Assembly: GCA_019114205.1 (NCBI GenBank)
Contig: DXFY01000053.1
Span: forward strand, 1 to 46,588
Origin: Candidatus Tidjanibacter gallistercoris
GTDB taxonomy: Bacteria > Bacteroidota > Bacteroidia > Bacteroidales > Rikenellaceae
Length of the DNA: 46,588 bases
Direction of reading: 5' to 3'
How positions within the stretch are numbered: the stretch's first letter is position 1; each line of letters starts with the position of its first letter. Below the pieces are notes generated by a model, which had not been told where the DNA came from, did not search any database, and worked only from the letters and a program-made list of their open reading frames with translations. Positions 13,429-17,842 of this stretch are shown piece by piece. The position numbers and the translations under genes are program-made.

Positions 13429-14133
13429 ATGGGCGAAACCAAAAAGGCGCAGGTGCGGGCGATGTTCGACAGCATCGCACCGAAATACGACCTGCTGAAC
13501 CATCTGCTTTCCTTCGGGGTGGACCGGCTGTGGCGCCGCAGGATGGTCGGAGCGGTTGCTGCCGCCGCACCGGAAGAGGTGCTCGATGTCGCGGCCGGTA
13601 CGGGCGACGTCGCCATAGCCATGGCGCGGCGGATGCCCCGTGTCCGGATAACGGGTATCGACCTGTCCGGGGAGATGCTCGCCGTCGGACGCGGAAAGGT
13701 TGCCCGGCTGGGGCTCGACGGACGCATCGTCCTGAAGGAGGGCGATGCCGAACGGCTTCCCTTTCCCGATGCGTCGTTCGATGCGGTGAGCATCGGATTC
13801 GGTATCCGCAACTTCGGCAGCATCGAGGCCGGGCTTTCGGAGGCGTTCCGGGTGCTGCGCCGGGGCGGGTGCCTGTATATTCTCGAATTTTCGACACCGT
13901 GCGGGCGGCTGTTCGGTCCGCTGTATCGGTTCTATTTCCACCGCATCCTGCCCCGCGTGGGACGTGTCGTGTCGAAAGACCGCGGAGCTTATTCCTATCT
14001 ACCCGATTCGGTAGACCATTTCCCGGATAATTTATTATTTTTGCGAATGATGGGGGACGCGGGCTTCACCGGCTGCCGTGACCGTCGTCAGATGCGGGGC
14101 ATCGCTTATATTTACGAAGGCAGGAAGGAATGA
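13429..14133 (+). CDS. menG: Demethylmenaquinone methyltransferase
   Basis: This 234-residue SAM-dependent methyltransferase is expected to carry out the last step of menaquinone synthesis. Family signatures include VRAMFDSIAPKYDLLNHLLSFGVDRLWRR at the N-terminus (split here: FDSIAPKYD and LSFGVDRLWRR), the SAM-binding loop DVAAGTGDVA near residue 65, the GEMLAVGR helix, and the late motif GFGIRNF. The length is typical of UbiE/MenG. It sits between the LolC/E-type permease (7-bp gap) and a small lipoprotein (4-bp ATGA overlap), so the mRNA is shared. A quinone pathway gene is an odd companion for envelope proteins; co-transcription need not mean shared function. Confidence 0.93.
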   Translation: MGETKKAQVRAMFDSIAPKYDLLNHLLSFGVDRLWRRRMVGAVAAAAPEEVLDVAAGTGDVAIAMARRMPRVRITGIDLSGEMLAVGRGKVARLGLDGRIVLKEGDAERLPFPDASFDAVSIGFGIRNFGSIEAGLSEAFRVLRRGGCLYILEFSTPCGRLFGPLYRFYFHRILPRVGRVVSKDRGAYSYLPDSVDHFPDNLLFLRMMGDAGFTGCRDRRQMRGIAYIYEGRKE

Positions 14134-14642
14134 AAGGAAAATGCTGTATACTGGCCGCGGCGGTCGTGGCGCTGATGTCGCTCCAGGGATGTATCAGAAA
14201 GGATTCCATCGTATTCCACGGGATTTCCGATGTGGACGTGTCGCTGCAGGCGTCGCCGCGCGTGGATGCGGTACTGCTCGTGGAGAATACCTCCGGCAGG
14301 GACATCACGGTGCGCGATGTTGCGTTCGAGCTGACGGGCCGCGACGGTGGGCGGATAGGCAAGGCCATGGTGGACGGCGACCTCCGTCTGCCCAAACATG
14401 CCCGCACGGAACTGTACGTTCCCCTGCAATGTTCGCTGGACAATCCCCTGAAGGCATTGTCCCTGTTGGGCGACATAGGGGGAAATGCGCCGTTGCTGTA
14501 TGTTTCGGGAGGCGTCACGGTCAAGGCCGGATGCCTGAAGAAGCGGTTCCGGGCGGAGATGGTGCCCTTGTCGGATTTCATCCGGTATTTCGGAGGAGTG
14601 CCGGATACGGTTCCCGCAGGGGAGGAAAGGAGTTTGGAATGA
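14130..14642 (+). CDS. Small LEA-like envelope lipoprotein
   Basis: A 170-residue lipoprotein: the signal ends in LQGC with Cys21. The mature part (about 35-150) is a beta-rich domain resembling the LEA type 2 / WHy fold: VDVSLQASPRVDAVLLVENTSGRDI, then DVAFELTGRDGG, and an LPKHARTELYVPL strand pattern. No catalytic residues are seen. The start overlaps the menG stop (ATGA) and its own stop overlaps the next start (ATGA), so translation is probably coupled across three genes. The function is unknown; residues after the cysteine are not acidic, which suggests the periplasmic face. Confidence 0.75.
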   Translation: MKGKCCILAAAVVALMSLQGCIRKDSIVFHGISDVDVSLQASPRVDAVLLVENTSGRDITVRDVAFELTGRDGGRIGKAMVDGDLRLPKHARTELYVPLQCSLDNPLKALSLLGDIGGNAPLLYVSGGVTVKAGCLKKRFRAEMVPLSDFIRYFGGVPDTVPAGEERSLE

Positions 14643-15202
14643 TACGTGCGGTAACGGTAAAACGGCTGAGGCGGCTAGGCGGCGTCCTGTTTGCGGCCTT
14701 GATGTCGCTGCCTGCTTCGGGACAGGACATCGCTGCATTCCGGAACGGACTGGCGCGTCCGGGAACGGTATCCGACGCGACGGTGACCGTAACCGAATAC
14801 GGCTCTGCGGCGGATGCCGTGCGCGTGTACGACACGGAGGAGAAGCCGGATGAAATACAGGGGTATCGCATTCGAATATTCTTCGACAACGGACAGAACG
14901 CCCGCAGCGAGGCGCTGGCCACGCAGGAGCGTTTCCGCAGCGAGTTTCCGGGCATACCGACATTCCTCGTGTACGAGAACCCGTCCTACATCGTGACCGT
15001 CGGCAACTGTATTTCCATCGACGAGGCGCTGATGCTGTGGAACAGGGTGCGGAAGAGCTTCGATACCGCTTTCCTGTGGCGGGGGAACATTCCCCTGGAG
15101 GAACTGCTGCGGGAAGAGGCGGTCCCGATTCCGGAGGAAGGCCTGCGGGCCGATTCCACGGCAACGGCGAACAGTGTTTTACCAGAATCAACCATTTTAT
15201 AA
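14639..15202 (+). CDS. Exported SPOR-like protein
   Basis: The frame from ATG 14639 encodes 187 residues and overlaps the preceding stop by 4 bp. An N-terminal signal peptide (about 1-28, ending SLPASGQD) precedes a spacer and a domain near 80-155 (GYRIRIFFDNGQNARSEA, then FPGIPTFLVYENPSYIVTVGN) with the beta-alpha-beta pattern of SPOR domains, which bind denuded peptidoglycan. A short disordered tail follows. It probably sits in the periplasm near the cell wall. It is 19 bp upstream of the cysteine-repeat lipoprotein and likely on the same transcript. The SPOR assignment is from pattern only. Confidence 0.72.
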   Translation: MIRAVTVKRLRRLGGVLFAALMSLPASGQDIAAFRNGLARPGTVSDATVTVTEYGSAADAVRVYDTEEKPDEIQGYRIRIFFDNGQNARSEALATQERFRSEFPGIPTFLVYENPSYIVTVGNCISIDEALMLWNRVRKSFDTAFLWRGNIPLEELLREEAVPIPEEGLRADSTATANSVLPESTIL

Positions 15203-15221: not shown

Positions 15222-15734
15222 ATGAAAAAGTTAGCACTCCTTTTAATCGTGGCTGCGGCCGCATGCGTAATGACTTCGTGCGGTAACCGCAATGCGAAGA
15301 AGGTCGCTACGCAGGTCGTGGAGACCGAAGTCGTAGCGGCAGAGGCTTCCGCCTGCTGCACGCAGGGCGAATGTACCTGCGAGACGTGCAAGTGCGAGAA
15401 CTGCCGTTGCGCTGAAGGCGAATGTACGTGCGAGCAGTGCGTCTGCGAAGGTTGCACCTGCGCCAAAGCCGCTGCCTGCTGCACGAAGGGCGAATGCACC
15501 TGCGAAACGTGCAAGTGCGAGAACTGCCGTTGTGCTGAAGGCGAATGTACGTGCGAGCAGTGCGTTTGCGAAGGCTGCACCTGCGCCAAAGCTGCCAAAT
15601 GCGAAACCTGCGCCTGCGAGGATTGCAAATGCCCGGCTGAGATGTGCGAGGAATGCAAATGCGAAACGTGCGAATGCGGTGCATGCTGCGCTGAAACCGC
15701 AGTCCTGAAAACGAAGACCGTAAAAACCGAATAA
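15222..15734 (+). CDS. Cysteine-repeat lipoprotein, metallothionein-like
   Basis: A 170-residue protein. The ATG at 15222 is chosen because it gives a canonical lipoprotein signal (hydrophobic stretch, then MTSC with Cys20); an in-frame ATG at 15174 would bury that signal. After a linker (about 21-42), the mature chain is almost entirely Cys-X-Cys and Cys-X-X-Cys units: 42 cysteines in all, about one residue in four. A 41-residue block (ACCTQGECTCETC..., CEQCVCEGCTCAKA) is repeated twice in tandem, then a degenerate third part (KCETCACEDCKC, EECKCETCEC). No histidines are present. Acidic residues between the cysteines suggest binding of metals such as Zn, Cu or Cd, or a redox-sensitive matrix, at the membrane; function is inferred. 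It ends the permease-menG operon. Confidence 0.85.
   Translation: MKKLALLLIVAAAACVMTSCGNRNAKKVATQVVETEVVAAEASACCTQGECTCETCKCENCRCAEGECTCEQCVCEGCTCAKAAACCTKGECTCETCKCENCRCAEGECTCEQCVCEGCTCAKAAKCETCACEDCKCPAEMCEECKCETCECGACCAETAVLKTKTVKTE
15351..15596 (+). repeat. Tandem 123-bp coding repeat in the cysteine-rich gene
   Basis: Copies 15351-15473 and 15474-15596 are nearly identical at DNA level, with only a few, mostly silent, differences. That indicates a fairly recent in-frame duplication of 41 codons. Confidence 0.9.
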
Positions 15735-15862: not shown

Positions 15863-17842
15863 ATGACCGAAAACGAAGATTTCGGCTCGCTCGGTCTCTC
15901 TCCGGAGATGCTCGCGGCGGTCGAAGCGAAAGGGTTCGAGCGCCCTACGCCAATCCAAAAGCTCACAATCCCCAGATTGCTCGAAGGCAGAAACGACATC
16001 ATCGCCCAGTCCCAGACCGGAACGGGCAAGACCGCTGCATACGGTCTGCCCATATTGCAGGTGCTGGAACGCGGCGCAGGAGGCGTGCAGGCAATCGTAC
16101 TCGTGCCTACGCGCGAACTCGCCCTCCAGGTGACCGAGGAACTCGTGTCGTACAACCGGGAGCGGAAACTCTCCGTCGCTGCCATATACGGCGGTGCCTC
16201 GATGAGCGAACAGCTCCGGCGGCTGGCGAAGGGAGCCGATATCGTGGTAGGGACGCCGGGGCGCGTGCTCGACCACATCCGCCGGCGGACGCTCGACCTT
16301 TCCTGTATCCGCTACCTCGTGCTGGACGAGGCCGACGAGATGCTGAACATGGGATTCATCGAGGATGTCGAGGAAATCATGTCGCATACGCCCGAAGAGC
16401 GGCGCGTGCTGCTCTTTTCGGCTACCATGCCCCGGCGCATCGTGAATCTTTCGCAGACGTACATGCACGATGCGGAGCTGCTGCGCGTGGAGTCGGCACA
16501 GTTGACGGCCGACCTGACCGACCAGATTTATTTCGAGGTGCGCGAGGCGGACAAGTTCGACGCCCTGACGCGCATCATCGACATCACCCCCGAATTTTAC
16601 GGCATCGTCTTCAGCTGCACCAAAGTGGGAACGGACGAGCTGGTGAACCGGCTGCTCGAACGGGGCTATGCCGCCGAGGGACTGCACGGCGACGTATCGC
16701 AGGCCCAGCGCGAAAAGGTGCTGCGCCGGTTCCGCAACCGGCAGGTGAACATCCTCGTAGCTACGGACGTGGCGGCACGGGGTATCGACATCAACAATTT
16801 GTCGCACGTCATCAACTATTCGCTGCCGCAGGATTCGGAAAGTTACGTGCACCGTATCGGGCGTACCGGCCGGGCCGGCAACCAGGGGACGGCCATCACC
16901 TTCATCTCCTCGTCGGAGATGCGGCAGTTCGGTTTCCTGCGCCGCGACATCAAGGCCGACATTCGCAGGCAGGATTTGCCCACGCCGCAGGACATCGTCG
17001 CCGTTAAAAGGCAGCGCATCAAGGAAGAACTGGACGAAATCGTCGCAGGCGGCGACTGGACCGATTACAATGACGTGGCGGACGAACTGCTCGACGCCTA
17101 TACGCCGGAGGTGGCGCTGGCTGCCCTGCTGCGTCTGGCGTTTCGCAGCGAGCTCGACGAGTCCGCCTATCCGGAGATACGCTCCTTCTCGGTGGACCGC
17201 CGGGGAAAGGCGCGTCTTTTCATCGCTGTCGGGAGGGAGGACGGCTACGACGTGCGGAAGCTTGTGGCACTGCTCAAGCGCGAATGCGGACTGCGCGACA
17301 AACATATCGATGACGTGAAGCTTGGCGACAGCTATTCGTTCGTCAGCGTTCCGTTCGAGGATGCCGAACAGGTGGTGCACAGGCTGAACAGGCTGCGCCG
17401 CGGGAAGCGTCCGTTGGCCGAGATAGCGAAGCCGGCCGGCACTTCCGATGAAGGGCGCAGCAAGCAAAGGGGCAGGGCCCCGGTCGCTGCGAAGCACGCA
17501 GGGGCGGCGGAAGCGCCCGGTGAAGGACGTTTTGCGGATGCGGTCGAACAGGCGACCGACCGGACACAGAAGAAAGTCCGTGGAGGGGATGGGAGAACGA
17601 CTTCCGGTTTCACGGAACGGCCGGGCCGTACTGTCGCGGCGGGAGGCCGCAAAAGCGCAGTAGTGCGTGACGGCAGGCAGGGCGGGAAAGGCAAGCCGCG
17701 CCGTGCCCCGCAGCGGGATGGCGGCGGGAACGGGGTGCAGGGGTTCCCGGAGTCGGAAGGCAGCGGCGGGTTCGACTGGTCGTTCTTCGAGAAGGACGGC
17801 AACCGGTGGGAACGTCCGGCCAAGGGCAGGAAACGGAAATAG
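15863..17842 (+). CDS. DEAD-box RNA helicase, DeaD/CsdA type
   Basis: This 659-residue ATP-dependent RNA helicase likely serves ribosome assembly, mRNA turnover and cold adaptation. The start at 15863 (MTENEDFGSL) follows the promoter by 20 bp and matches the family N-terminus; an in-frame ATG at 15773 lies upstream of the promoter. The RecA-like core shows the Q motif (PTPIQ), Walker A (SQTGTGKT near 52), PTRELALQ, TPGR, DEAD near 152, SAT, then ARGIDI and HRIGRTGR. Residues about 440-515 form a DbpA-like RNA-binding domain (ARLFIAVGREDGYDVRKLV). The last 130 residues are a disordered R/G/K-rich tail that would add nonspecific RNA affinity. It is monocistronic and convergent with the next gene. 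Confidence 0.93.
   Translation: MTENEDFGSLGLSPEMLAAVEAKGFERPTPIQKLTIPRLLEGRNDIIAQSQTGTGKTAAYGLPILQVLERGAGGVQAIVLVPTRELALQVTEELVSYNRERKLSVAAIYGGASMSEQLRRLAKGADIVVGTPGRVLDHIRRRTLDLSCIRYLVLDEADEMLNMGFIEDVEEIMSHTPEERRVLLFSATMPRRIVNLSQTYMHDAELLRVESAQLTADLTDQIYFEVREADKFDALTRIIDITPEFYGIVFSCTKVGTDELVNRLLERGYAAEGLHGDVSQAQREKVLRRFRNRQVNILVATDVAARGIDINNLSHVINYSLPQDSESYVHRIGRTGRAGNQGTAITFISSSEMRQFGFLRRDIKADIRRQDLPTPQDIVAVKRQRIKEELDEIVAGGDWTDYNDVADELLDAYTPEVALAALLRLAFRSELDESAYPEIRSFSVDRRGKARLFIAVGREDGYDVRKLVALLKRECGLRDKHIDDVKLGDSYSFVSVPFEDAEQVVHRLNRLRRGKRPLAEIAKPAGTSDEGRSKQRGRAPVAAKHAGAAEAPGEGRFADAVEQATDRTQKKVRGGDGRTTSGFTERPGRTVAAGGRKSAVVRDGRQGGKGKPRRAPQRDGGGNGVQGFPESEGSGGFDWSFFEKDGNRWERPAKGRKRK

Follow-up and report, generated by a model that had tools for sequence, protein, structure and literature searches.

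A cysteine-rich Tidjanibacter lipoprotein with a possible metallothionein-like tail, at the extreme of a syntenic Rikenellaceae family

The cysteine-rich protein encoded at positions 15222-15734 (forward strand) of the window, a stretch of 46,588 nucleotides from Candidatus Tidjanibacter gallistercoris (host genome of 2.03 Mb; Rikenellaceae, Tidjanibacter group), is the extreme of a conserved family of short lipoproteins encoded downstream of one conserved gene. With somewhat less than an even chance, its tail is a lipid-tethered polythiol segment that would bind soft metals in a metallothionein-like manner, the metal binding being suggested by sequence. The stop-free translation of 170 residues contains 42 cysteines, 26 glutamates, a single aspartate and no histidine; the cysteine count, the lack of histidine and the lipobox announced in the preliminary description are all borne out by translation and residue counts. 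Forty of the 42 cysteines lie in the tail, the other two being C15 in the signal peptide and C20, the lipobox anchor. The lipobox, VMTS-C with methionine at −3, aligns with VMVSC/AMVSC of relatives, and the cysteine-free linker that follows it is the mature segment best conserved within the genus. The gene, its parts and its neighbours are:

13429-14133, forward strand: ubiE/menG-type methyltransferase gene, syntenic.
14130-14642, forward strand: conserved upstream lipoprotein gene, LEA-like by eye, no Pfam match, identified by synteny.
14639-15202, forward strand: conserved gene upstream of the lipoprotein gene, used as the syntenic marker; it looks SPOR-like by eye and matches no Pfam family.
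15222-15734, forward strand: coding sequence of the 170-residue cysteine-rich lipoprotein, from ORF translation and same-place orthologues.
15222-15281, forward strand: signal peptide and anchor cysteine, residues 1-20 (ending in VMTS-C20); C20 and GN(R/K)NxKK align among Tidjanibacter orthologues.
15282-15350, forward strand: linker without cysteine, GNRNAKKVATQVVETEVVAAEAS, residues 21-43, from the alignment.
15351-15473, forward strand: repeat copy 1, residues 44-84, from autocorrelation and block comparison.
15474-15596, forward strand: repeat copy 2, residues 85-125, identical to copy 1 at 115 of 123 bases.
15597-15692, forward strand: third cysteine block, diverged, residues 126-157, common to the orthologue in G002.
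15863-17842, forward strand: downstream DEAD-box RNA helicase gene; synteny holds in those core Tidjanibacter loci that reach that far.

Autocorrelation of the window protein has its top peak at a lag of 41, where 53 of 110 residues are identical. Of the tandem 41-residue blocks proposed earlier, two stand as true copies (44-84 and 85-125), whereas the third block (126-157) is only a diverged remnant. Inside the blocks runs a five-residue CxCxx rhythm, 28 of 38 cysteines having another cysteine five residues on; cysteine pairs number 16 at distance 2, 13 at distance 3 and 28 at distance 5. The two copies differ at eight bases, seven of them silent and one replacing, against a silent share of about 23% expected without selection (P = 2e-4). 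These near-exclusively silent differences, together with same-place orthologues in other genomes, exclude a chance open reading frame. The repeat is a single recent duplication, as its base identity shows, and has been retained by selection, as the codon counts show. In the orthologue of G002, the nearest relative, the block is present as a single copy, and one copy was either gained by duplication in the lineage of the window or lost in that of G002. Since the two copies are far more similar to each other than either is to the G002 block (85 or 86 of 114 bases identical), duplication in the window's lineage is favoured.

Like the other members of the Rikenellaceae syntenic family, the window protein is a small lipoprotein encoded immediately 3′ of the SPOR-like gene, whose low-complexity tail, rich in A/E/K/T, comes after a conserved signal and anchor. 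The SPOR-like gene is present in 254 of 268 Rikenellaceae genomes; among 295 sampled genomes of Bacteroidales, 281 have the same gene (14639-15202 in the window). That the lipoprotein follows it throughout Bacteroidales was considered and dropped, because none of 20 loci from other families has one. Within the window's own GTDB genus a family member was found in 7 of 22 loci. Tail cysteines of same-place orthologues number 26 in G002, 15 in G019, 8 in G022 and 1 in G001, and at least 16 in G020, where the contig ends inside the repeat; the more distant orthologue of G021 has a single cysteine, right beside the anchor. In the G020 sequence (G020:C16:1-300, locus L006) the interrupted repeat is 27 residues long, and the two copies that can be seen hardly differ. 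For this family, short-read assemblies are likely to underestimate the number of repeats.

Eighty further loci were sampled via the SPOR-like gene alone, and 61 of them have a short family lipoprotein downstream; among the remaining 19, at least two are truncated where a contig stops. Added to 26 earlier loci these give 87 syntenic orthologues, and because 19 of the 26 were found through the family model, the share of member-bearing loci is a biased measure of prevalence. Tail cysteines range from 0 to 40 among the 87 (median 6; anchor positions of L001, L065 and L080 set by hand), with at least four in 73 and none in seven, all of genus g3; many homologues carry just 3-6, and cysteine makes up 11.6% of all tail residues. 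The preliminary description had proposed looking for a conserved family of variable repeat number, and this is what was found: the family is syntenic, and cysteine and repeat number both vary. The Cys-free tails of g3 (L063-L066, L069, L071, L080) consist of ADSIAAA-like repeats, showing that the repetitiveness of the tail does not depend on cysteine. Tidjanibacter tails are built of CxC and CxxC units and are enriched in cysteines at distance 5 (z 7.8). Outside Tidjanibacter, in Alistipes-type tails, CxC is strongly avoided (15 observed vs 105 expected), and CC and CxxC are common. CxxC was considered as a family-wide metal motif and dropped, not being significant over shuffles (z 1.3).

To follow cysteine content over the family, orthologues were classed as poor (0-1), mid (2-9) or rich (at least 10 cysteines) on a tree of the SPOR-like protein, which is a quick-method tree of one short gene, so that change counts are approximate. 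The three-state count needs 12 changes; the rich state alone needs about 8, of which at least 5 are forced by the starred branches. Gains and losses would not be separable with certainty on this tree. The sisters G001 and G022, for instance, have 1 vs 8 tail cysteines. Two PG1828-like lipoproteins from another Bacteroidales family (L170 and L175, family f18) carry tails of CDSC repeats, apparently a further independent parallel gain.

Where cysteines are present, they are held by selection in the nearest relatives. Between the window protein and that of G002, all 26 aligned tail cysteines are kept, and in seven of these the codon differs silently, whereas 28 of 79 non-cysteine residues have changed (Fisher 9e-5). 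Across 24 close pairs, 10 of 158 cysteine positions changed vs 164 of 1252 others (P = 0.014); both P values are somewhat optimistic, as aligners favour Cys-Cys matches and the pairs are non-independent. Homologues without the cysteines, which the preliminary description had named as evidence against its reading, do exist in part: the syntenic G001 protein has one tail cysteine and the seven g3 members none, yet the nearest relatives retain theirs. Same-place orthologues with 0 or 1 tail cysteine indicate that cysteine is a recurrent elaboration of this lipoprotein and not its defining feature, and their persistence in place suggests that the lipoprotein has another or more general role.

Comparison with known families places the protein near short Bacteroidales lipoproteins. 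The window protein matched no Pfam family at E-values up to 10, and a PDB sequence search with it returned nothing significant; a cytochrome c match (E = 0.2) was rejected as what looks like an effect of cysteine composition. For the window protein and 14 relatives, Pfam and NCBIfam gave no metallothionein and weak matches of signal-peptide type only. The nearest named family is the PG1828 lipoproteins (NF050142), below the family cut-off: 11 of 14 family members matched the model at E-values up to 1 (best 1.3e−8), and none of 10 individually scored relatives reached the cut-off of 50 bits (best 35.4). The window protein itself did not match it. The likeness lies in a short Bacteroidales lipoprotein with an MKK...SCGN signal and anchor and an Ala/Glu/Val/Thr/Asp tail; in contrast to the window protein, most PG1828-like proteins seen elsewhere carry Cys-free tails. 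LptM (NF047847), the sole NCBIfam match of the window protein and also a short lipoprotein with a comparable signal and anchor region, aligned with residues 1-22 at 12.4 bits (E = 0.13), below its cut-off of 27.7 bits. Both families share the anchor region with the window protein, and not the tail. A literature search on cysteine-rich or metallothionein-type lipoproteins, Alistipes and Bacteroidetes, with most subscription journals outside its scope, returned nothing on this family.

The metallothionein comparison made in the preliminary description holds as a likeness: membership is not supported, given the lack of any Pfam or NCBIfam metallothionein match. Bacterial metallothioneins (SmtA/BmtA, MymT) are small proteins for intracellular metal chelation and storage (PMC7558416). 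They resemble the window protein in being short cysteine-rich chains with many CxC/CxxC units, here 40 tail cysteines, and no confident metal-free fold. The window protein differs in having an export signal and a lipid anchor, in being longer and in lacking histidine, and its signal peptide and lipobox, predicted and conserved in orthologues, speak for a location other than intracellular. AlphaFold2, run on the single sequence, gave a mean pLDDT of 54 and no confident fold, which would fit an apo-metallothionein-like chain, but any disordered tail equally well. Csp1-type proteins are exported and, like the window protein, have many cysteines, which in Csp1 serve metal storage. In Csps, Cu(I) is held in the core of a pre-folded four-helix bundle (PMC7558416), whereas the window tail has no confident fold. 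By analogy, the window protein may be described as one of the short lipoproteins of Bacteroidales, its tail resembling a metallothionein.

As to location, surface export in Bacteroidota is associated with acidic motifs after the anchor cysteine, K-(D/E)2, Q-A-(D/E)2 or SDDDD (PMC5080379). None of these follows C20, where the sequence is CGNRNAKK, a comparison made with motifs that have not been validated in Rikenellaceae; this makes the periplasmic face likelier than the surface, in agreement with the preliminary description. Neither DsbB nor VKOR was detected in 23 genomes of the genus, and across 60 genomes from the order no VKOR exceeded the cut-off, so the absence of VKOR is not specific to Tidjanibacter. 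The envelope is likely reducing, although oxidants other than DsbB/VKOR are possible. Cysteine parity is also free, with an odd count in 41 of the 87 orthologues and no even-number bias, which is evidence against obligatory disulfide pairing.

The genomic neighbourhood gives no hint of metal homeostasis: no such gene is adjacent, the neighbours being ubiE, two conserved genes without Pfam matches and the DEAD-box helicase, and a recycling reductase is likewise missing next to the gene. The Bacteroidota house-keeping promoter consensus TTG-N17-23-TAnnTTTG (PMC7366714) precedes the lipoprotein gene in 70 of 87 loci (expected 1), and the −7 element alone in 80 (expected 7). In most of L035-L142 a near-consensus promoter lies about 40-50 bases before the start. 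The six core loci of Tidjanibacter, among them that of the window, all lack the consensus; in the window the gene starts 19 bases past the neighbour's stop codon, a gap that suggests co-transcription.

From the sequence we infer anchoring, a periplasmic face, a reduced state and metal binding, which would combine as follows. Export would be by Sec, with a lipid anchor at C20 and the remaining chain most likely lying in the periplasm. The mature part would be unfolded, with a short Ala/Val/Glu linker followed by the 40-cysteine polythiol segment in CxCxx rhythm. In a periplasm without a detectable DsbB/VKOR oxidase, its thiolates could form clusters with soft metal ions (Zn, Cu(I), Cd or similar), and the tethered tail would buffer or hold metal at the envelope, with evolution adjusting its capacity through tandem duplications of the cysteine blocks. 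Cysteine retention and rhythm, free parity and the likely reducing envelope argue for metal binding. Against it count the lack of adjacent metal genes, the Cys-free orthologues, the 3-6 cysteines of many homologues, which seem few for a metal cluster, and the avoidance outside Tidjanibacter of CxC, a unit typical of metallothioneins.

The main rival to metal binding is thiol or sulfur buffering, in which the tethered thiols act as a metal-free pool at the anaerobe's envelope, with oxidants, sulfide or polysulfide as reaction partners. We consider this unlikely. Forty thiols without a histidine, the undetected DsbB/VKOR and the freedom of cysteine number and spacing across the family agree with it, but in the window's lineage every aligned cysteine and the CxCxx rhythm are kept, suggesting that spacing matters, and there is no adjacent recycling reductase. 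Rather less likely still is low-complexity drift, whereby an anchor and an acidic flexible tail suffice and the cysteines, of little use themselves, are carried along by tandem duplications of DNA. Tails do diverge quickly, as the sharply differing sisters G001 and G022 show, Cys-free tails exist and the 123-base duplication is recent; against neutral drift, nevertheless, stand the codon counts (seven silent differences out of eight), the retention of 26 of 26 cysteines vs 51 of 79 other residues, and an 11.6% cysteine content across 87 orthologues with several separate enrichments. A structural cross-linker, its disulfides joining lipoprotein tails to one another or to partners in the envelope, could draw on the CC and CxxC pairs of Alistipes-type tails, but is improbable given the undetected DsbB/VKOR and unbiased parity. 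Equally improbable is a tail that recruits a specific partner, e.g. as an LptM-like accessory of lipoprotein or LPS transport with cysteines as assembly ligands: the weak N-terminal LptM resemblance and the house-keeping promoters of consensus type that precede most family genes point that way, but the sub-threshold match spans the signal peptide and anchor only.

Returning to metal binding, a tentative generalization, to which we give less weight than to metal binding in the window protein itself, is that the membrane-tethered polythiol lipoproteins of Rikenellaceae make up a hitherto unrecognised class, in which metallothionein-like tails of tunable capacity have repeatedly evolved as a metal store on the periplasmic side. 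If metal binding holds true, metallothionein-like chemistry would have been relocated to the envelope on a lipid anchor and would have arisen anew several times within a single family of common gut bacteria, in contrast to the intracellular bacterial metallothioneins described in PMC7558416. The series of orthologues with 0-40 cysteines at one syntenic place is a ready test set for comparing metal or redox behaviour with thiols and with none.
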